Notes under the pieces: model-generated | Seen by the model: the letters and a program-made list of their open reading frames with translations, nothing else | What the model was told of the DNA's origin: nothing | Database searches by the model: none | In this document: piece by piece, positions 128 through 60,730 of the stretch | Position numbering within the stretch: position 1 is the first letter of the stretch | How the letters are laid out: the number at the start of each line of letters is the position of its first letter | From: Lachnospiraceae bacterium | GTDB lineage: Bacteria; Bacillota; Clostridia; Lachnospirales; Lachnospiraceae | Length of the DNA stretch: 64,000 bases | Reading direction: 5' to 3' | NCBI GenBank assembly: GCA_900168235.1 | Contig: FUZG01000010.1 | Span: 1 to 64,000 of the forward strand | Program-made: the position numbers and the translations under genes

Positions 128-1360
128 ATGCATAATGAAACTAAAATCCAGGAAATACTCCGAAAAACTTTGGAGTCATTGAGAGAAAAAGAGTATAGCG
201 AAGAAACTATTCGCCGATATAGGCGAAAATTTAATGTACTTAATAAGTTGGCGCAAAGCTTAGATATCCAAGAGCCCACTGATAAGCTATTCAGTGAATA
301 TCTGAAAGACTGTAATAATGTATATACTGGTGAATTTTCAGTTTTAAAACAGCGGCAAAGAATCCGCGTTGTAAACCTGATCAAGTCTTTCATTGAAAAT
401 GGTGACGTAGATACTTCCAGAAAACCTGGGAATGCTGTTGCCAACAGGATAAAATCTGAAAGATTCCGCACTGAATTAGACAAATACATTCGGTTATTAG
501 TAGATGATGAAATACAGCCTAATACCATATGCACATACAAACGTATTGTTGCATATCTTCTGCTTTATTGCGAAGAAAAGTCGTATTCAACCGTTGAAGA
601 ATTAGTTTCCGGCGATATATGCGACTTTATACTGCATCTTTATGATCATGGTTATTTCAAACCAACAACAATTTCTAGCGGGTTATCAGGACTTAAAAGA
701 TTTCTGTCGCTTTATCCAGGTATAAAAAATCTTACGATGGAGCTCCCATCACATCTTCCCAGAGAACGAAAAATCATTGAAATATACAGCGAACCTGACA
801 AAGATTCTATCAATAAAGTATTGAATGATAACTGTATGACGAAGCGTGATATGGCTATATGTCTGCTTCTTTTAGAAACAGGGCTAAGAGCAGTGGATGC
901 ATGCAATATAAAGCTGTCAGATATCGATTGGAGCAAAGAGATAATCTATATAAAACAACAGAAGACTGGGCATGTAATAAGCCTACCACTCCGCAAATCG
1001 TATGGAAATGCTATAGCGGATTATGTACTAAGCGAACGGCCTGATTGCAAATCTAAATATCTTTTTGTCAGGGCACTTGCACCATTTTCACGTCTTGAGG
1101 GTGAGGGTTCCTCTATCCGAGTAGTGCTCCAGAAGATGGAAAAGCTGGCTGGCATATCTGATGCTGCAAGAAGTACTGGAAGTAGGACAACCAGACATAA
1201 CGCAGCTTCTATGATGCTAAGATCCGAAGTAACTATGGGCAATATCTCAGCAGTTTTAGGGCATCATGATCCAAATATAGTTTCTGTTTACCTTTCCACA
1301 GATGACAAGATCATGGCATCCTGCACGCTCCCCCTTCCAGGAGGTGTAAGCCATGAATAA
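128..1360 (+). CDS. Tyrosine recombinase, first of the trio
   Basis: A 410-residue site-specific recombinase or integrase. The N-terminal 200 residues are helical and resemble SAM-like DNA-binding domains. The C-terminal half has the phage-integrase fold with an arginine in LLETGLRAVDAC, a lysine in the beta-hairpin IKQQKTGHVISL, then TTRHNAA, LGHHDP and a probable nucleophile tyrosine in SVYLS. An AAGGAGG ribosome binding site precedes the ATG. Its 3' end overlaps the second recombinase by 8 bp, suggesting translational coupling. It would act together with the next two proteins in moving the element. Confidence 0.9.
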   Translation: MHNETKIQEILRKTLESLREKEYSEETIRRYRRKFNVLNKLAQSLDIQEPTDKLFSEYLKDCNNVYTGEFSVLKQRQRIRVVNLIKSFIENGDVDTSRKPGNAVANRIKSERFRTELDKYIRLLVDDEIQPNTICTYKRIVAYLLLYCEEKSYSTVEELVSGDICDFILHLYDHGYFKPTTISSGLSGLKRFLSLYPGIKNLTMELPSHLPRERKIIEIYSEPDKDSINKVLNDNCMTKRDMAICLLLLETGLRAVDACNIKLSDIDWSKEIIYIKQQKTGHVISLPLRKSYGNAIADYVLSERPDCKSKYLFVRALAPFSRLEGEGSSIRVVLQKMEKLAGISDAARSTGSRTTRHNAASMMLRSEVTMGNISAVLGHHDPNIVSVYLSTDDKIMASCTLPLPGGVSHE

Positions 1361-2315
1361 ATCATTAACTGAGCTAATAGACGATTTTGTAAACTATAAA
1401 AGACATAATGGTTATGTTTACGTATCAGCAGAATACCATCTTATGAAATATGTAGAGTATACTTCTGCCAACTTTCCTGATGAAAATGTCCCAAGCAAGA
1501 CATCCATAAACTCATTCTTGAAGGAACATTCACATACCCCGGGCACTTTGTATAATCTAGCAGCATTTCTTCGGGAGTTTTCAAGGTATCTCATCAGTAT
1601 TGGGTATACAGATGCATATATCATCCCCTACAAAAAGGTTCCATTACCGACACCTGTTCAGCCATATCTGTTTACCGAAGCAGAAATATCTGGATTTTTC
1701 ATGGCTTGTGATAGTATGCCATATGATTGTCATGTACCAAAAAGAAATATAGTTTTCCCAGCAATGTACAGACTTATGTACTGTTGCGGCCTCCGCTGTA
1801 AAGAAGCGCGTACACTTAAGTGTGAAAATGTGGTGTTGAATCATAACTATATCGACATTCTGCAGTCTAAAGGTCCTAAAAGCAGGCGCATTTTTATTTC
1901 TGATGAATTATCTCATTATCTTGATTCTTATAACGAATCGATTAATAGATTGCTCCCAGACCGAGTGTACTTCTTTCCATCAAGAGGAGATTCCCCATAT
2001 AGTTCCGGATCTGTAGAAAAAACTTTTCTCAAGATATGGTACACAGCATTCCCAGAGAAACGGGGAAATGGAGTAAGTATTAGAGCGTATGATTTCCGAC
2101 ATCATTTCGCCTACGCAAATATGAACCGATGGCTAAAAAAAGGAAAAGATGTAAATGCCATGCTTCCATATCTCATGCGTTATATGGGACATCAGGACAT
2201 TGAAAGCACTCTTTACTATTTTCATCTGGTTCCTGAGATATACCGAGAAATCATTGAAAAATCATCCTTTTTTGAAGACTTATTACCGGAGGTGACTGAT
2301 AATGATCAAGAATAG
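1353..2315 (+). CDS. Tyrosine recombinase, second of the trio
   Basis: A 320-residue phage-integrase-family recombinase. The catalytic region shows CCGLRCKEAR (first arginine), a lysine in LQSKGPKSRRIF, then AYDFRHHFAYANMNRW, MRYMGHQDIES and a tyrosine in TLYYFHL. The N-terminal core-binding part is shorter than in the first protein. An AGGAGGTG ribosome binding site inside the end of the upstream gene fixes the ATG start. The 14-bp overlap with the third gene keeps the three proteins in one translational unit, as expected if they work as a complex. Confidence 0.9.
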   Translation: MNKSLTELIDDFVNYKRHNGYVYVSAEYHLMKYVEYTSANFPDENVPSKTSINSFLKEHSHTPGTLYNLAAFLREFSRYLISIGYTDAYIIPYKKVPLPTPVQPYLFTEAEISGFFMACDSMPYDCHVPKRNIVFPAMYRLMYCCGLRCKEARTLKCENVVLNHNYIDILQSKGPKSRRIFISDELSHYLDSYNESINRLLPDRVYFFPSRGDSPYSSGSVEKTFLKIWYTAFPEKRGNGVSIRAYDFRHHFAYANMNRWLKKGKDVNAMLPYLMRYMGHQDIESTLYYFHLVPEIYREIIEKSSFFEDLLPEVTDNDQE

Positions 2316-3333
2316 AACAGCAGATACTGATAGTGCGTTTTTCTGGAATAACGCAACGGATTTTTTAAATAAAGAATTACCTACAATACGTCAGAAAAGC
2401 AACAATACAATTGAGACATACAGGAGATCGCTGAACTCTTACATAGACTATCTTGAAGCTGAAAAATTAATAAAACGCAAAGACATTTGTTATAAGGACT
2501 TTAATAAGAATAATCTTAAAGATTATCTTGTATATATGAAGGACATTCAGAAGCTTAGTCCTAAGACCTGCAATTTAAGAATCACTGCAATACGCGCACT
2601 TCTATCTTATGCTGCAGATGAATCAGTGGATATAACAGCAATCTATGTTAACTCCAAAGCAATAAAAGGACTTTCTGTGACGGAGCATGAAATTGAATAC
2701 TTTGAAAAAGCTCAGCTAAAAGAATTAATATCGGCTCCATCAGAAGATGCCAGGATTGGACGAAGAAATCGAATGATCCTAATAATAGGATATGATGCAG
2801 CCCTGCGTGTAAGCGAACTGATAAGCTTAAAAGTGTCATCACTCCATCTTGACGCAGAAGTGCCATATGTGACAGTTTTGGGGAAAGGACAGAAATATAG
2901 AAACATCCCCTTAATGAATAAGACTACCCGACATTTATACAACTATCTCAAGGAATTTCACGAAGATAAAAGAGTGGATAATCCTTTGTTTTATACGACC
3001 ACTCACGGTGTAATACATGCCCTTTCTGAAGATGCGATTCAAAATGTTCTAAAAAAATATGCTGATATTTCCAGAAAGAAAGTGATGATGCCGGAAAAAG
3101 TTCACTTCCACATGATGAGGAAAACAAGAGCTATGGACTTGTATCAGGCAGGTTGCCCGCTATCATACATCCAACAGCTACTAGGCCATGAGAGCGTATC
3201 GACCACAACAGGATTCTATGCATTTGCAACCTTAAAAACTCTTGCAGAATCAATAGAAAAGGCCAATCCATCTGGTAATGAAGAAAAGATTTGGAAAAAC
3301 AAATCCATTATGAAGCAGCTATACAGGCTATAA
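2302..3333 (+). CDS. Tyrosine recombinase, third of the trio
   Basis: A 343-residue integrase, the most XerC/D-like of the three. Residues near 15-110 form a SAM-like core-binding domain (NNTIETYRRSLNSYIDYL). The catalytic half contains GYDAALRVSEL, LGKGQKYRNIPL, FHMMRKTRAMDL, QQLLGHESVSTT and the tyrosine of GFYAFAT, so all expected catalytic positions are visible. GGAGGTGA precedes the ATG. The right terminal repeat begins almost directly after the stop codon. Confidence 0.92.
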   Translation: MIKNRTADTDSAFFWNNATDFLNKELPTIRQKSNNTIETYRRSLNSYIDYLEAEKLIKRKDICYKDFNKNNLKDYLVYMKDIQKLSPKTCNLRITAIRALLSYAADESVDITAIYVNSKAIKGLSVTEHEIEYFEKAQLKELISAPSEDARIGRRNRMILIIGYDAALRVSELISLKVSSLHLDAEVPYVTVLGKGQKYRNIPLMNKTTRHLYNYLKEFHEDKRVDNPLFYTTTHGVIHALSEDAIQNVLKKYADISRKKVMMPEKVHFHMMRKTRAMDLYQAGCPLSYIQQLLGHESVSTTTGFYAFATLKTLAESIEKANPSGNEEKIWKNKSIMKQLYRL

Positions 3334-35372: not shown

Positions 35373-36035
35373 TCAAAATCTCATATTACGTACATCCTTT
35401 ATCAATTCCCCATAAGGCCTCTCATGACCAAAGAGAAGGGATGTTCCTAAGACAAATCCATCTATCCCTCTCGGTGCATATTTCAATATTTTTTCGGAAG
35501 TACATGCTCCATCCCACCATAGCTCGATCTCAGAGTCTTCCTTTATCGCTAATAACTTCGTTATTTTTCTCTCAACAAAAGGCAGGAACATCTGGGATGC
35601 ATTTCCTGGATTTACACTCATTATGAGTACTTTTTTCACTATATGAAGAAGTTCCACTATGGATTCAACACTGGTTCCGGGATTTATCGCTATTCCGGGA
35701 ATCATTCCGGCATCCTGGATCTTCATAACCGTGACAGACGGATGATACTCCGCCTCAGGATGGATATAGACCGTATCCCCGGGACGAAGCTTTTTTAAGA
35801 AAATGTCAACCGTATTAACAGGATGCTCAACCATAAGATGCACATCTAAAGGCTTCTTTGTAAGACCTGCAATACATGACATATCATTTAATGACATGGC
35901 AAAATTTCCCACAAATCTGCCATCCATGATATCAATATGAAAAGAATCTATGCCGCCCTCATCCAACATCCGGACTTCCTGTTCCAGATTCCGATAATCA
36001 GCGCACATCATAGATGCTGTAAGCTTAAAGTTCAT
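35373..36035 (-). CDS. rpe: Ribulose-phosphate 3-epimerase-like enzyme
   Basis: A 220-residue TIM-barrel enzyme that interconverts ribulose 5-phosphate and xylulose 5-phosphate or a related ketose phosphate such as allulose 6-phosphate. Metal ligands are seen in SFHIDIMDGRFVGN and DVHLMVEHP, and LWWDGACTSEKIL carries the late aspartate normally found in VDGG. The phosphate-binding region is IDGFVLGTSLLFG. Sequence around the last motif differs from standard Rpe, so the substrate may be a different sugar phosphate. AGAGGGGGAG precedes the ATG. It stands alone between its own terminator and a divergent toxin-antitoxin pair. Confidence 0.8.
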   Translation of the reverse strand: MNFKLTASMMCADYRNLEQEVRMLDEGGIDSFHIDIMDGRFVGNFAMSLNDMSCIAGLTKKPLDVHLMVEHPVNTVDIFLKKLRPGDTVYIHPEAEYHPSVTVMKIQDAGMIPGIAINPGTSVESIVELLHIVKKVLIMSVNPGNASQMFLPFVERKITKLLAIKEDSEIELWWDGACTSEKILKYAPRGIDGFVLGTSLLFGHERPYGELIKDVRNMRF

Positions 36036-54835: not shown

Positions 54836-55108
54836 TCATTTAACAGCTTTTATTCCAATACATATGCTATATGTACTATCTTGAACACGTAAGATACTCT
54901 TATCTGGCAAATCTTCAACCGCTAACCCTTGTATAAATGCCGTGGCCAAAGCAACATTACCAAAGCATTCAACTTCAACTTGTTCTCCAAACCATTCATG
55001 CATTAATTTTTTTATGGCAAGATCAGTAAAGCGCCAATAATCACCATAATCATTCATATCCGCCCAACTAACCTGTGATATATTTCCGGCAACAGTTGCC
55101 AAAAGAAC
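54836..55108 (-). pseudogene. C-terminal fragment of a methyltransferase split by transposition
   Basis: About 90 residues, read from VLLATVAGNISQVSW through DYGDYWRFTDLAIKKLMHEW to IGIKAVK and a stop. This is the usual end of a class I methyltransferase of polysaccharide loci. The missing front part lies 5 kb to the right at 60.0-60.7 kb. The break is exactly at an IS66 end, and the 8 bp AAAAGAAC is repeated at both sides of the inserted segment. The piece alone has no SAM-binding site. Confidence 0.85.
55101..55108. repeat. Target site duplication, left copy
   Basis: AAAAGAAC directly precedes the left IS66 end (GTAAGC...). The same 8 bp follows the right IS66 end at 60026-60033. Eight bases is the usual duplication length for IS66-family elements. 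Confidence 0.8.
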
Positions 55109-55372
55109 GTAAGCTCCTAATCACGCGTACCTTTTCATAACAACCAATTCATGAGACAATCCCGCTATCATATCTAAATTCGTGTTGCGCGATCTGCGCG
55201 ATTCGTGCCTGATTCTAAGGAGGTCGTTCTCATGAACGCTAAAAAAAAATTCATCAGGTCAAAATGACCGGATGGGCGGCTCTCATCAAAGAGCAGTCCG
55301 AAAGTAATCTTACTGTCAAGGAATGGTCTACTCAAAAAATTATTCCATCCACACTTATAATTACCGGAATCA
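55109..55372 (+). mobile_element. IS66-family left-end remnant, copy A
   Basis: The 264 bp match the start of copy B (from 59107) with few differences, including the end GTAAGCTCCTAATCACG, the AAGGAGG ribosome binding site and the first codons of tnpA. The tnpA frame is broken after about ten codons (an indel in an A run gives a TGA), and the sequence stops just before the GT9-like gene's stop codon. Confidence 0.8.
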
Positions 55373-55375
55373 TAA

Positions 55376-56413
55376 TCAGCTATTTTGTTCCAACTGCAAT
55401 TGTAATATTCTCTTTTGAATTAAATTATGAATTATATTTTTTGCTTCTTCTAACTCCATACAAATGATCAAATCTGAACCTTCTTCGTTCTGAACAAATT
55501 TTAGGTCAAATCCACACTTCCTCAATAAATCCATCTCTTCGTCAATCTTGCAAGCACGATTTAAGATGTTCAAAATCAAATTCTTAAAATAATAAATAGT
55601 TTTAACCTCCTGTCCAAACATCCTGCCTAGATCATAATGATATAAATAAATATCGCTTAAACAAATTACAAAACCTCCAAGTTGTGTCACTAAATCAAGT
55701 AATCCACACCTAATGCCTATAAACCCAACTGTATTTTTGCATAAATATGCCAATTCCTTACCTGATGTTATCATAGCCTCAGTATTATTTATTGGCTTTT
55801 CTTCCCCATAAGTATTCGTATAAATTACGCAATTAAATTTTTCTTTTAATAAACGTACTACTTCATCCCAAAAGCCTATTTCTATTAACTTTCTTGATAA
55901 CTCCTTAGTGGCACTGTTACCATGCGGAACAAGAACAATTGTTCCCCTCCTATTTAAGGTATATTTCGCATTTAATTCTTCAATTTCCCCTAAAGTTAGA
56001 CCCCATATACTCGGTTTAACCACCTCTGTCTCTATAGGTAGGCCAAATACATACTTCTTAAATTCATCTGCAAACGTTAACTCAACCGAGCCTATCTGAC
56101 TTTCACTTTGTGTACTCCTAAACCAGCCATACAAAAAATTCTTCGTGCTATCTAATTCTCTGTTTTCACATTTCTTTTTTAATTCTTCATATTCCTCATT
56201 CGTAACATATATAAATGTAACATTTTGAAAGCTTAAAAAGAATCGTTTAAAATCCTCGTGACATACATAGAAAATATGTTTCTTTATAATCCTAGAATAC
56301 GAAGAACAAAGACCTCCAACTATAATAAAATCACCAATACCATCATTAAACGGATAAAAAACATAATAGTTTTTTTCATCATTTTTTATATTTGAGATTA
56401 CAGAATTCTTCAT
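55376..56413 (-). CDS. GT9 (heptosyltransferase)-like protein
   Basis: A 345-residue protein of a GT-B-like fold. It starts with YVFYPFNDGIGDFIIVGGLC, the fast-turning N-terminal region of family 9 transferases, and the second half has GTIVLVPHGNSATKELS, FNCVIYTNTYGEEKPI, LCKNTVGFIGIRCGLLDLV and FVICLSDIYLY, the donor-binding pattern. It is the last cargo gene of the IS66-bounded segment, and its stop codon lies right at the edge of the IS remnant. It most likely transfers the sugar that the other three cargo genes prepare. Confidence 0.72.
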   Translation of the reverse strand: MKNSVISNIKNDEKNYYVFYPFNDGIGDFIIVGGLCSSYSRIIKKHIFYVCHEDFKRFFLSFQNVTFIYVTNEEYEELKKKCENRELDSTKNFLYGWFRSTQSESQIGSVELTFADEFKKYVFGLPIETEVVKPSIWGLTLGEIEELNAKYTLNRRGTIVLVPHGNSATKELSRKLIEIGFWDEVVRLLKEKFNCVIYTNTYGEEKPINNTEAMITSGKELAYLCKNTVGFIGIRCGLLDLVTQLGGFVICLSDIYLYHYDLGRMFGQEVKTIYYFKNLILNILNRACKIDEEMDLLRKCGFDLKFVQNEEGSDLIICMELEEAKNIIHNLIQKRILQLQLEQNS

Positions 56414-56510
56414 CTATTATTCATCCTCAATACACAGATATTATATTTCATCAAAATTTTGTACATCTTTCTTTTAGGCTTCATGTTATATAATCTGAAC
56501 TGCCTGATGA

Positions 56511-56879
56511 TTACAACACTCTTATTATCTCAGGTAAATTAAACTTGTCTCTTTCTAAATTGAACGAAAAAGCCATATCTAATCCAGATGTCTTTCTGTC
56601 GTTTACCACTATTCTTTCACCGTAAGGAATGCCAAATAGAATGTCATCGTACCGGATTTCATTTTCTTTCAAAAACTCAAGTGTCATTTCCCGGTATTCT
56701 TCTTTTCTTGAAGTTAAAAAAATTATCCTGTCATCTTTTGGAAGTTCATCCAAATACTCTTTTGCTCCGGATAATAAAATATCTTTTCCATCAAGCTTAT
56801 ATCCATTGTGTTTTACGATCGTTCCATCAAGATCAAGTATCCACGTCTTTCCAAGAGTGGACATTTCTACCCTCTTCAC
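56511..56879 (-). CDS. Small HAD-superfamily phosphatase
   Basis: A 122-residue minimal HAD protein. Motif I is WILDLDGTIVKHNGY with both aspartates, motif II is IIFLTSRKEEY, and the late acidic motif may be IVVNDRKTSG. Size and sequence fit phosphatases that act on sugar phosphates or heptose bisphosphate. The first codon is a GTG with TGGAGG seven bases upstream; an ATG five codons later is possible. It lies between the SIS isomerase and the GT9-like gene. The gap of 97 bp to the GT9-like gene has no other gene. Confidence 0.75.
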   Translation of the reverse strand: MKRVEMSTLGKTWILDLDGTIVKHNGYKLDGKDILLSGAKEYLDELPKDDRIIFLTSRKEEYREMTLEFLKENEIRYDDILFGIPYGERIVVNDRKTSGLDMAFSFNLERDKFNLPEIIRVL

Positions 56880-56891
56880 AAAACACCTCCA

Positions 56892-57485
56892 CTATAAACA
56901 TCCATCCTTCTCCAATACTTGACCTATATGTCCTCCCGGATGATTTTGCTTAAAATCAAAGAGAGTAAGTCCCTTTTCTTTCGCAATCTGCATCGCCAAC
57001 CCCTGTAAAACTATAAGATATACGGTAGTCGAATTATTAGGCATGATATTCCACATATCTCCCTCGTGGATCAGATCAAGTACCAACGAATTTTTTATCT
57101 CACGTACCAAAGTACAATTTTTTTCAAAAGTCATGCACCAAAGATTGATCTTTCTGTCTTTCAGTAATCTTTCAAGATATATTGATTCTTCAGTTTCCCC
57201 GCTCTTTGACAAAATAATGACCATGTCACCATTCTTAACGATACCCATATCACCGTGGACTGCTGAATTTGTATGAAGAAAATATGCATCCATCCCAAGC
57301 GAGATCATTGAACCCACAAATTTGTCACATATCGGGACATTTTTTCCCAGACCACTTACTATGATCTTGTGCCCCGCATCTATCGTATCTACTGCCTCCG
57401 CAGTCAATCTTCTAAAGGTTGCTTCATCCATTGAATGGATCGAATGATCGATCTCTCCAAGTTGTTTTTCAAAATATGAGATCAT
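56892..57485 (-). CDS. SIS-domain sugar-phosphate isomerase (KdsD/GutQ-like)
   Basis: A 197-residue enzyme. The sugar isomerase fold is shown by KIIVSGLGKNVPICDKFV, FLHTNSAVHGDMGIV, VIILSKSGETEESIYLERL and the ending DFKQNHPGGHIGQVL, the last being typical of arabinose-5-phosphate isomerases. The CBS domains of KdsD are absent. It would interconvert a ketose phosphate and an aldose phosphate as the first step for an activated sugar. It overlaps the upstream nucleotidyltransferase-kinase gene by one base, with GAGGAGGTG as ribosome binding site. Confidence 0.85.
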   Translation of the reverse strand: MISYFEKQLGEIDHSIHSMDEATFRRLTAEAVDTIDAGHKIIVSGLGKNVPICDKFVGSMISLGMDAYFLHTNSAVHGDMGIVKNGDMVIILSKSGETEESIYLERLLKDRKINLWCMTFEKNCTLVREIKNSLVLDLIHEGDMWNIMPNNSTTVYLIVLQGLAMQIAKEKGLTLFDFKQNHPGGHIGQVLEKDGCL

Positions 57486-59071
57486 TACAGCACCTCCTCA
57501 AGATAATAGAGTCCATTGTAAAATGCTCCACAAATGGAATCGTAATCCTGCCATGCGTATGTCGTTAGACTAAGCCAGATAACTGCATGAAGAAGTCGTA
57601 TCTCATACGGATCCGTACCTGTCATTTCAAAGAAGTCCTTCTCGAGATCTTCCCATTTGTTAGATTCGATACTTAGTTTAATCTCTCCTACCGGAATTTC
57701 CAGACCGCATCCCGCCTGATTACCGGCTTTTCCAGTCTCTTTCTCATCTGCGTGACCGGCATTTCCACCTATAACCAACGAAAACTTCTTGAGATTAAAT
57801 CTGTCATAATTCCCAACTATCGAATAGTACAACTTTGCCCAGTCATAATTCGAATCTCCAAAAAGCTCCGTATAACCAAAATACCCTCTGGGATCGATCA
57901 ATACCGGCTCTCCTGTATCTCGAACCATTAGATTTGAAAATGTACAATCTCCGTGAATAAACGCGAAATGATCACACTTCATTCTTTCCAAAGCATGCTC
58001 CAACTCATCCTGATGAAAGAAAATATTGCGGCACTTTCTGCCATTAACAGTGATAAACGGTTCCCTTGCAAAAGGCACCAGATCACGCACCTTCTCAAGG
58101 CGCTTCATTGTCTTATTAAAATAAGCCTCCTGCATACTAAAAGAATCCGTCGGAACACATTCTGCGCTATGCAAAAGCTGTAAAGACTCCACTAACTTTT
58201 CAAGTATCTTTTTCTTTTCATCATAAGAAAAAACACAATCATAGATATTTTCCCCCTGAACATATTCCATTTTTAAGGGATCGTATCCATATATTCGAGG
58301 CAATACAGGTATACGAAGATCCTGTGCCTTTTTATACCAGGCATTTTCTCTTACAGCCAGATTACGTCCCTGCTCATCAATAGCTTCTTTTACAAAAAAA
58401 TCACCATCTCTATACGCACGATTAAACGGGCGACATTTTTCTGTACCTAAGTTTAGTACATCCTCTATCAGTCCAAACTCACGAGTACCTGCAAGACTCA
58501 CCTCGCCAAATATCATTCCACTCTCGCTCATCCAGCGAACCAATTCACCTTCAGAAGGAACATCTTTAAGCTGTTCCTTATCTTTAAAAAGAAAAAATCC
58601 TGCAACACCATGCTCTGTAGATCTTTCCTCTGCAAATTTACCATTCTCATACTTCCATCTGCATGAAAAAGACATAGAAATGCCTATGTAATTTTTATCT
58701 ACTTTTGATGGATCGTTTTGAAGATATTCCAGTGGAATACATAAGTCTTTCGGCAATATAAGGTCCGACCATACAAGCATAAACGGCTGTGCATCAGGTA
58801 TCCGTGAAAGAGCCTCTCTGACTCCCGATGCAGTCCCTTTACCAACTGCATCCACCACCTCATATTTCACATTCGCAAAAGCGCGCAGATAATGCCTAAG
58901 AACCTCTTTTTGGTAATCAGCAATAATAACATATTTCTTATCTGGAAATTTTCTAAAAAGATAGAACAGCATCGGCAGATTCTCTATCGGAACCAGTGCC
59001 TTTGGCTTGTTCTCAGTAAGATATGTAAGGCGAGTCCCCTTCCCGCCTGCCTGAACGATGATATATTCCAT
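57485..59071 (-). CDS. Fused sugar nucleotidyltransferase and APH-type kinase
   Basis: A 528-residue bifunctional protein. Residues 1-230 are a nucleotidyltransferase with VQAGGKGTRLTYLTENKPKA and VWSDLILPKDL. Residues 245-528 are an aminoglycoside-phosphotransferase-like kinase: FVKEAIDEQG for the lysine, FAFIHGDCTFSNLMV for the catalytic aspartate and PVLIDPRGYFGYTELFGDSN for the metal site. It could phosphorylate a sugar phosphate and then activate it with a nucleotide. AAGGGGGAG precedes the ATG. It is the first gene of the four-gene cargo set. Confidence 0.85.
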   Translation of the reverse strand: MEYIIVQAGGKGTRLTYLTENKPKALVPIENLPMLFYLFRKFPDKKYVIIADYQKEVLRHYLRAFANVKYEVVDAVGKGTASGVREALSRIPDAQPFMLVWSDLILPKDLCIPLEYLQNDPSKVDKNYIGISMSFSCRWKYENGKFAEERSTEHGVAGFFLFKDKEQLKDVPSEGELVRWMSESGMIFGEVSLAGTREFGLIEDVLNLGTEKCRPFNRAYRDGDFFVKEAIDEQGRNLAVRENAWYKKAQDLRIPVLPRIYGYDPLKMEYVQGENIYDCVFSYDEKKKILEKLVESLQLLHSAECVPTDSFSMQEAYFNKTMKRLEKVRDLVPFAREPFITVNGRKCRNIFFHQDELEHALERMKCDHFAFIHGDCTFSNLMVRDTGEPVLIDPRGYFGYTELFGDSNYDWAKLYYSIVGNYDRFNLKKFSLVIGGNAGHADEKETGKAGNQAGCGLEIPVGEIKLSIESNKWEDLEKDFFEMTGTDPYEIRLLHAVIWLSLTTYAWQDYDSICGAFYNGLYYLEEVL

Positions 59072-59229
59072 AGACTCCCCCTTGACATCATCTATGTCGA
59101 ACTATCGTAAGCTCCTAATCACGCGTACCTTTTCATAACAACCAATTCATGAGACAATCCCACTATCATATCTAAATTCGTGTTGCGCGATCTGCGCGAT
59201 TCGTGCCTGATTCTAAGGAGGTCGTTCTC

Positions 59230-59637
59230 ATGAACGCTAAACAAAAAATTCATCAGGTCAAAATGACCGAATGGGCGGCTCTCATCAAAGAGCAGTCCGA
59301 AAGTAATCTTACTGTTAAGGAATGGTGTGATCAAAACAATTATTCCATTCACACTTATAATTACTGGAAGCATCAATTAAAGGAAGAAGCTTTCAGTTCT
59401 ATTGTACCCGACATTGTTCCTTTGGCTCAGCAATCTTTTACATCCCTTTTGCCGGATGACTTGGCTTTACAATCTTCTGTTTCGTTTGATTCGTGCAATT
59501 CGCGCGATTTGCACAACTCAAAAACTACTGAAACTCAATCAGCGCTTATCTCCATTGGAGATATCCGCATTGAAGTAGGTTCCTCTGTTTCAGACGAAGT
59601 TATACTCGGAGTGATCAAGGTGGTGCGCCATGTTTAG
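59230..59637 (+). CDS. tnpA: IS66-family accessory protein TnpA
   Basis: A 135-residue protein. The N-terminal helix-turn-helix is visible in TEWAALIKEQSESNLTVKEW and NNYSIHTYNYWKHQLK, the standard pattern of IS66 TnpA. The tail is low in similarity, as usual. AAGGAGG lies before the ATG. The 3' end overlaps the tnpB start by 8 bp as in complete IS66 elements. It is intact, but the transposase it would assist is deleted. Confidence 0.85.
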   Translation: MNAKQKIHQVKMTEWAALIKEQSESNLTVKEWCDQNNYSIHTYNYWKHQLKEEAFSSIVPDIVPLAQQSFTSLLPDDLALQSSVSFDSCNSRDLHNSKTTETQSALISIGDIRIEVGSSVSDEVILGVIKVVRHV

Positions 59638-59941
59638 AACAATACCTTATAGCTCCTTTTCTTCAATCTACCTTGTTTGCGGCTATACCGATATGCGACT
59701 TGGAATTGACTCTCTTGCCGCCATCATCTATAGTCTTGTAGAAACTGCGAAGGCCAACAACCTCAAAATCTATGACTACTTTGAATTTCTCATCACTGAG
59801 ATTTCAAAACACAGACATGAGGAACAAAAACACAAAAACGCAGATGAAAAATACAAACCTGACAGCTCCTATCTTCATGATCTTCTTCCTTGGTCAAAAG
59901 ACATACAGAAGAATTTTCATCGTAAAGAGAAAAAATCCTAA
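59630..59941 (+). pseudogene. TnpB-TnpC deletion fusion of IS66
   Basis: The first 32 residues are the start of TnpB (SIYLVCGYTDMRLGIDSLAA). From IYSLVETAKANNLKIYDYFE on, the frame is the end of the IS66 transposase, including DLLPWSKDIQKNF. About 2 kb that should lie between, with the rest of tnpB and the catalytic DDE part of tnpC, has been lost in frame. The product has neither function. Confidence 0.85.
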
Positions 59942-60025
59942 TTAACTTATCAATGTTCAAATATATGAAATCGCCAATAAAATGGCGGTTTCTTTTTGTT
60001 TAGGTACTCAGAAATGAGTGCTTAC

Positions 60026-60033
60026 AAAAGAAC
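60026..60033. repeat. Target site duplication, right copy
   Basis: AAAAGAAC directly follows the IS66 right end and equals the 8 bp before the left end at 55101-55108. Joining the two flanks at this octamer restores a continuous methyltransferase reading (KKGGVLL followed by ATVAGNISQ), apart from the upstream frameshifts. Confidence 0.8.
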
Positions 60034-60730
60034 TCCACCTTTTTTAAGGTATACCAAGCACCACCAATCGCCTTTTTTACATCAAAAATAAAATTAAAAA
60101 CTTGTGTTGATATAAATACGTCATATGTTTCCTTAGGCAGTGAGTTCCATACTGTCAGATCCATCCCCTTATCATATCTAAGTACATCTTTGGAAATTTC
60201 TTCTTGAGGAAAAAAAGTTTTACTATAATAATAATCACCAACTTCCAAAATACGGCTGACGCATCTTTTATCCAACGTATTCGTTTGAGTCAGCAAGAAT
60301 TTCTCTATGAACCACCTATCTATCGGCATTCCCCTGTCAAATCCAAACAGAGTACTTACAGGATTTTTATTAATAAGAAAGTCACTACTGTAAAAAGGAT
60401 GTAAATGCCTGAATATTAAATAATAGTCCTTATCCGTTAAACAATAATAATCAACAGTATATTTATTCAACTCAGAAGTAATTTCTTTAACATATTTTGG
60501 AGAAACAGCAACTAAAACCACGGAATCTTCTGCTGAGTTCCCGTCAATCCATTCAGCAAACTCATAAACTTTCTTTCCGCATACTTCCTGCTCCGTGTCA
60601 TTACCTTCCGTCACTAAATAACATTCTGGAACAATCCCCCCCGACTCAAGAATGCTGTTTAATCTTTTTCCGTTTCTGCCTGCTCCATATATTGCAATGT
60701 TTTTTTTAGAAACTCAAGAACATCTGACAT
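60026..60730 (-). pseudogene. N-terminal part of a methyltransferase with Rossmann-like module, split and frameshifted
   Basis: An ATG with GAGG upstream starts SDVLEFLKK; after a run of eight A the homologous reading continues one frame away as NIAIYGAGRNGKRLNSILE, the repeated module of this locus. A SAM methyltransferase start follows (RILEVGDYYYSKTFF, DVFISTQVFNFIFDVKKAIG). A second one-base loss in an A run near 60040 hides KKGGVLL. The gene then stops at the IS66 right end and the duplicated AAAAGAAC; its end is at 54836-55108. One more A in the first tract would restore the start. Confidence 0.75.

Follow-up and report, generated by a model that had tools for sequence, protein, structure and literature searches.

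Positions 55101 to 60033 of the window analysed here hold four genes predicted to activate and transfer a sugar, flanked by two remnants of the insertion sequence (IS) IS66 and lodged inside a methyltransferase-like gene. The window spans the opening 64 kb of contig FUZG01000010.1 (contig 27 of a 3.79-Mb, 28-contig draft assembly, GCA_900168235.1) from a Lachnospiraceae bacterium. The preferred reading, with a probability of about 0.6, is that IS66 mediated the entry of a pentose gene set into the methyltransferase-like gene, through either composite transposition or recombination of IS66 copies with each other, and that the unit then decayed. By sequence comparison, a kinase–nucleotidyltransferase and an isomerase from this set match genes of the T4-like phage RB69 that have been proposed to supply an arabinose donor, and this match is the new element of the analysis.

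Anatomy of the insertion

From left to right the insertion consists of the octamer AAAAGAAC (55101..55108), a 265-bp IS66 fragment, the genes for a GT9-like protein, a HAD-type phosphatase, a SIS-domain isomerase and a nucleotidyltransferase–kinase fusion, a spacer of 35 bp, a 919-bp IS66 copy and a second AAAAGAAC (60026..60033). The four cargo genes (55376-59071, minus strand) each form an open frame, and the two IS66 remnants point in the same direction. Each octamer abuts the outer end of an IS66 remnant, as the earlier note on this DNA had described. The IS66 termini carry GTAAGC ends, and terminal repeats of this kind with an 8-bp target duplication are the values of the IS66 family.

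The octamer is meaningful because it lies flush with both outer ends and not because it is rare, since AAAAGAAC occurs six times in the window against 4.0 expected. An exact flush match of eight bases would arise by chance with a probability of about 5e-5 under the local composition. Before the inner end of the right copy stands GAACTATC instead of AAAAGAAC, so the duplication pertains to the outer ends only. A chance octamer is rejected on this pattern. A duplication confined to the outer ends implies either that the inserted piece was bounded by the left end of the left copy and the right end of the right copy, or that a lone IS66 stood at the site first.

The interrupted methyltransferase-like gene

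The two flanks are halves of one gene read on the minus strand. The C-terminal part (54836..55108, including the left octamer) is 60% identical to residues 224-321 of a homologue in a genome of the same genus (G030), and the N-terminal part (60034..60730) is 40% identical to residues 8-266 of the same protein, the latter match reading past the insertion junction. This homologue (L038) is uninterrupted, is 322 amino acids (aa) long, matches both flanks and reaches the Pfam cut-off for Methyltransf_11 (23.5 versus 21.2 bits); neither half in the window matches a Pfam family by itself. Uninterrupted homologues were present in all five other genomes in which the gene was found. Three of these belong to the genus (G030, G012 and G044, at E 1e-25 or better; 4/48 with the window's own) and two to the wider family (G253 and G403, at E 1e-40 or better; 3/397 with the window's own, from a protein search that scored five candidates per genome and may have missed others). 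The three genus carriers are not among the 7/48 genus genomes with the fusion, and the window's genome is the only one of the 48 with both genes. To the search for an empty site, proposed as a check by the earlier note, the answer is uninterrupted homologues in five genomes, three of them genus genomes without the fusion. The octamer is absent from the G030 homologue, as may be expected at such divergence. In G030 the homologue adjoins genes related to the deacetylase (35%) and the glycosyltransferase (38%) of the window; in the window a radical SAM gene intervenes.

It had been claimed that joining the two sides restores a methyltransferase. The flanks do form halves of one gene, but the reading frame is not restored, because a one-base shift near the junction sets one half out of frame with the other. 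The first 10 codons or so of the N-terminal part probably lie in another frame, and a further frame shift near the gene start is probable; this points either to a pseudogene with damage besides the insertion or to assembly errors at that place. The methyltransferase may have acted on the glycan and may have been working when hit; it also carries frame shifts besides the insertion. Taken together, the same-direction remnants, the outer octamers and the uninterrupted homologues elsewhere uphold the earlier proposal of an IS66-bounded insertion of sugar-activation genes into a methyltransferase-like gene.

State and history of the IS66 sequences

Both IS66 sequences are partial, and the clean pair of copies first envisaged is rejected. 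The left remnant (55109..55373, plus strand) begins with GTAAGCTCC, retains the 5' end only, has a frame-shifted tnpA start and is 96% identical to the right copy. The right remnant (59107..60025, plus strand) has both ends and a large internal deletion. Within it lie tnpA, encoding an accessory protein (59203..59637, plus strand; NF047593, 48.1 bits versus a cut-off of 28), and a relic in which the start of TnpB is joined to the C-terminal tail of TnpC (59630..59941, plus strand; PF13817 above cut-off, PF05717 at positions 2-30 of 101 and below cut-off). The right copy has lost nearly all transposase sequence, and of TnpC the C-terminal element PF13817 alone survives in the window. IS66 remnants do therefore stand at both ends, as 265 bp on the left and as a copy stripped of most transposase sequence on the right.

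The draft genome yielded no match to the TnpC domain DDE_Tnp_IS66 (PF03050), which is present in 20/48 genus genomes, no TnpB besides the relic, and no further copy of the element, with the limit that IS66 copies could be absent from a draft assembly. The unit resembles a fossil that is now immobile because the draft genome holds neither an IS66 transposase nor a further element copy. The suggestion that the cassette is transposable at present thus finds no support, and a mobile-cassette reading is historical at best. Measured against a composite transposon, the locus has two IS copies around a cargo and one outer duplication, the left copy being without its 3' end; a working transposase from a flanking IS is not present.

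Searches for related IS66 DNA scored the first six or the first two candidates per genome, so misses are possible. Among the candidates scored, identity above 90% over more than 300 bp to the window's IS66 was found in one genome only (G001), as partial copies. Three partial copies of this lineage lie within about 39 kb of G001 (C2:214-253 kb; L043, L044 and L045), where the surrounding genes look like glycan genes by reading; one of the copies has both ends present and unmatched flanking octamers.

Composite transposition and recombination between IS66 copies account for the locus about equally well. In the second branch of the preferred reading, a lone IS66 inserted first and made the octamer, and the cargo arrived later by homologous recombination with an incoming molecule that carried cargo and IS66. 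This history, given slightly less than an even chance, would yield an identical anatomy and fits the common direction of the copies, and nothing sets it apart from composite transposition. Also in its favour, the copies are not identical (96%) and their differences are unevenly placed. Judged among five IS66 copies, and discounting a trimmed base of the right copy and both end gaps in the left one, the left fragment has nine private changes (seven substitutions and two one-base gaps), all beyond position 136, and the right copy has one. The outer part of the left fragment, its first 136 bp, is free of private changes. Such a pattern may reflect a recombined mosaic, although one 265-bp fragment set against four other copies is weak evidence.

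Predicted functions of the cargo

The largest cargo gene (57485..59071, minus strand) encodes a 528-aa fusion of a nucleotidyltransferase domain (PF00483) and an APH-type kinase domain (PF01636), both above cut-off. Its predicted structure, with a mean predicted local distance difference test (pLDDT) score of 78.5 and with residues 10-32 under 50, resembles MurU and HddC in the nucleotidyltransferase part and LicA and APH in the kinase part, and the protein matches phrog_4098 over residues 1-528. The adjoining gene (56892..57485, minus strand) encodes a short SIS-domain sugar-phosphate isomerase of 197 aa that is KdsD/GutQ-like (PF01380 above cut-off). Its best family models are KpsF/KdsD/GutQ, with TIGR00393 at E 1.5e-31 and below the full-length cut-off; its structural relatives are 5uqi and 2xhz, and in PHROGs it falls to phrog_5670 (arabinose 5-phosphate isomerase). 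The third gene (56511..56879, minus strand) encodes a small HAD-type phosphatase-like protein of 122 aa, similar to the phosphatase part of PNKP, with weak Pfam HAD and PNKP matches below cut-off and a match to phrog_1238 (E 2e-8).

The fourth gene (55376..56413, minus strand) encodes a 345-aa protein that is glycosyltransferase-like by predicted fold, putatively a GT-B fold of the heptosyltransferase type. Its AlphaFold2 model has a mean pLDDT of 69.9, and the best Foldseek match is TibC (E 3e-6), followed by the GT9 structure 3tov (1e-4) and WaaC/WaaF; matches at E 0.001 or better have modest template modeling (TM) scores of 0.36-0.55 on the query. No Pfam or NCBIfam model is over cut-off for this protein, and four relatives are likewise without a glycosyltransferase model. 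The earlier label of a GT9-like transferase is accordingly retained as a fold prediction of moderate confidence that has no counterpart among the Pfam and NCBIfam sequence models. As a whole, the profiles, folds and PHROGs make it plausible that the cargo covers the path from a ketose phosphate to transfer of the sugar, as had been proposed.

No promoter-like site was found on the minus strand between 57473 and 60730 that could serve as the cassette's own promoter, and such sites occur in the region at chance level (21 versus 22.5). The cargo is probably transcribed by read-through, since it has the same orientation as its neighbours and 35 bp separate its start from the right IS66 copy.

Relation to phage genes

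Relatives of the fusion were found in 352/50,697 phage records, all less than 60% identical and 336 of them over at least 80% of the query, with Escherichia (173) and Acinetobacter (57) as the commonest host names. In the four phage neighbourhoods inspected, the isomerase stands before the fusion in every case. Searches with profiles built from bacterial fusions and isomerases retrieve p052 (E 1.5e-39), p053 (E 4e-5) and p055 (E 2e-29) of RB69, and the window's isomerase aligns directly with RB69p055 at 32% identity over 157 aligned positions. The RB69 counterparts form one gene run, and the adjacency of isomerase and nucleotidyltransferase–kinase is shared by the window. RB69p051 matches no Pfam family; it hits phrog_1238 (E 2e-42), as does the window's HAD protein, and this makes for a weak sequence link between the two. 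In Synechococcus phage S-SRM01 (L159:4411-6823) isomerase, fusion and HAD genes are contiguous and all three profiles match. The S-SRM01 trio lies among fucose genes.

The hydroxymethylcytosine (hmC) of RB69 is reported to carry arabinose, and p055 and p053/p052 have been proposed to make the donor, in a role described as speculative (PMC6024577). The same article already noted Butyrivibrio relatives. RB69 p051 is listed with a polynucleotide-kinase phosphatase domain (PMC8056088), and a sugar-gene cluster of this kind is mentioned for Mosigvirus (PMC13390438).

Most likely, the cargo acts on a pentose, D-arabinose or another, and activates it along a route resembling that for heptose. A product other than an arabinose nucleotide, such as an activated heptose, hexose or deoxypentose, is considered less likely. 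The fold search for the transferase returns heptosyltransferases, the nucleotidyltransferase domain resembles MurU and HddC, and one homologue of the fusion belongs to a phage whose DNA bears a deoxypentose (PMC12838424). Against a different sugar stand the isomerase, whose best family models are those of arabinose-5-phosphate isomerases (KpsF/KdsD/GutQ), and the occurrence of fusion and isomerase relatives in a phage that carries arabinose on its DNA (PMC6024577).

Relatives of the cargo in bacteria and plasmids

Genomes were scanned for cargo relatives with eight aligned fusions as the query; this gave 377 encoded relatives, the best 80 of which were kept. The flanks of many relatives end at contig ends, so the counts of partner genes and of IS66 matches are lower bounds. 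Among these best 80 of 377, the isomerase accompanies the fusion in at least 77, the HAD gene in at least 46 and both in at least 44, with both partners within 3 kb in at least 32. The isomerase starts less than 100 nt from the end of the fusion in at least 70, and at least 56 loci have a match to the GT9-like protein of the window or of G005, a genome of the same genus. The closest fusion relatives are about 66% identical. Within the genus the fusion occurs in 7/48 genomes at E 1e-30 or better; within the family 71/200 genomes match at E 0.001, mostly as short single-domain matches. Among 72,556 plasmid records, five have any match to the fusion and one has a match over 80% of the query. On a Planktothrix agardhii plasmid (L160:5983-7874) the fusion (40% identical) and a HAD relative lie near amidinotransferase and sulfotransferase genes.

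The expectation that the same genes would be found between IS66 copies elsewhere was not borne out. In the available DNA beside the best 80 of 377 cargo relatives there is no IS66 protein match and one IS66 DNA fragment, and no IS66–cargo–IS66 unit stands at a second site in the window's own genome or in the flanks of those loci. Five of the six other genus fusion loci were checked for IS66 DNA (G002 was left out), and one has a one-sided scrap. A generally mobile cassette is rejected, as no second unit appears among the best 80 of 377, the five genus loci or the plasmid records. The single fragment is a 110-bp piece of the IS66 5' end in G005 (L039 = L101, 2605-2714), 92% identical to the window's and located just past the HAD gene of the trio. 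It has the same relative direction as in the window, and in the available DNA the opposite flank shows no IS66 match. Common descent of the two arrangements is not accepted, the IS66 piece being 92% and the cargo proteins 62-75% identical. The G005 piece adjoins two open reading frames (ORFs) resembling istA and istB of IS21. Among the listed articles of an open-licence PMC library, judged on titles and abstract openings, no IS66-bounded cassette like this one was found.

Base composition gives a divided answer to the comparison that had been called for. At third codon positions the G and C content (GC3) is 0.359 in the fusion and 0.379 in the isomerase, higher than in all 15 comparison genes picked from the window (0.235-0.338), but the HAD (0.325) and GT9-like (0.272) genes fall within that range; at least some of the cargo genes may not be native to the cluster. 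A history in which a cargo long established in the cluster was flanked later by two independent IS66 insertions would suit the latter two GC3 values and the 79 of the best 80 relative loci without detected IS66, yet it is strongly disfavoured and very improbable in view of the one octamer at both outer ends and not at the right copy's inner end, the flanks that are halves of a gene uninterrupted in five other homologues, and the raised GC3 of the fusion and isomerase.

Genomic setting

The insertion sits within a long minus-strand run of genes of surface-glycan type. A glycosyltransferase, a polysaccharide deacetylase and a carbamoyltransferase are above their Pfam cut-offs, a radical SAM protein is slightly under its cut-off, and other genes were assigned to the glycan type by reading of their translations. 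The cluster includes a putative ribulose-phosphate 3-epimerase (35373-36035), identified from the translation, which could either supply or deplete the pentose phosphates that the cargo would use. At 128-3333, three overlapping ORFs in a row have the look of tyrosine recombinases in translation.

Proposed mechanism

In the preferred reading, IS66-mediated acquisition would have placed a set for pentose activation and transfer in a large surface-glycan cluster, within a methyltransferase-like gene, after which the IS66-bounded unit would have decayed to an immobile relic. The SIS enzyme would convert D-ribulose 5-phosphate to D-arabinose 5-phosphate (or act on a related pair), the APH-type kinase domain would phosphorylate the anomeric position, and the HAD enzyme would remove the distal phosphate. 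The nucleotidyltransferase domain would then form nucleoside diphosphate (NDP)-arabinose, from which the GT9-fold enzyme would transfer arabinose to the glycan. The overall logic would be that of the nucleotide-heptose pathway with an unrelated kinase.

Several observations weigh against this account. Only two IS66 copies remain and both are partial, and no fusion relative above about 66% identity was found, so neither a donor nor a second unit is known. The identity of the glycosyltransferase depends on a fold from the model of mean pLDDT 69.9. A HAD profile built from 46 bacterial members and the window's own did not find RB69p051. For the phage homologue of the fusion noted above (53% identical to the RB69 protein), it is reported that no in vitro activity was identified, and the DNA of its phage carries a deoxypentose, not arabinose (PMC12838424).

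A broader proposal, advanced tentatively and at rather less than even odds, is that the trio of fusion, isomerase and HAD protein constitutes a general, uncharacterised NDP-D-arabinose route common to bacterial glycans and the DNA of T4-like phages, for which IS66 is one way of entry. This route would lead from arabinose 5-phosphate through the 1,5-bisphosphate and the 1-phosphate to NDP-arabinose.

The locus records a single, clearly marked entry of genes for surface-sugar activation into a glycan cluster, together with an insertion sequence and at the cost of another gene. It also connects a gene set that is widespread in bacteria with the phage genes suspected to supply an arabinose donor for DNA. 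The phage arabinose-donor pathway could be tested with the compact bacterial enzymes; the link to these genes is the most useful lead.

Comparison with known systems

Each piece of the insertion is of a known kind. Composite and pseudo-composite transposons of IS66 likewise have two IS66 sequences around unrelated cargo and a single outer 8-bp duplication; here, unlike in those elements, both copies are defective, the draft genome has no transposase and no second unit was found. The isomerase shares the SIS domain with the KdsD and GutQ arabinose-5-phosphate isomerases and with PDB 5uqi, which is of like size (198 aa), whereas the models of KdsD and GutQ have lengths of 321-328, and the window's isomerase matches their first part only.

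The nucleotide-activated heptose pathway, with the enzymes GmhA, HddA/HldE, GmhB and HddC, has the same order as that proposed for the cargo (isomerase, anomeric kinase, phosphatase, nucleotidyltransferase and GT9-type transferase). It differs in that the window's kinase is APH-type and fused to a MurU/HddC-like domain, and in that the window's isomerase is KdsD-like. The putative arabinosyl-hmC donor genes of RB69 (Tevenvirinae) include a related isomerase, a nucleotidyltransferase–kinase and a phrog_1238 protein in one run, the link to the window's HAD protein being weak. The nucleotidyltransferase–kinase is split in RB69 (p053/p052) and is a single protein in the window. The RB69 genes lie beside the DNA polymerase gene and are thought to serve DNA modification, whereas those of the window lie in a bacterial glycan cluster together with a GT9-fold transferase.

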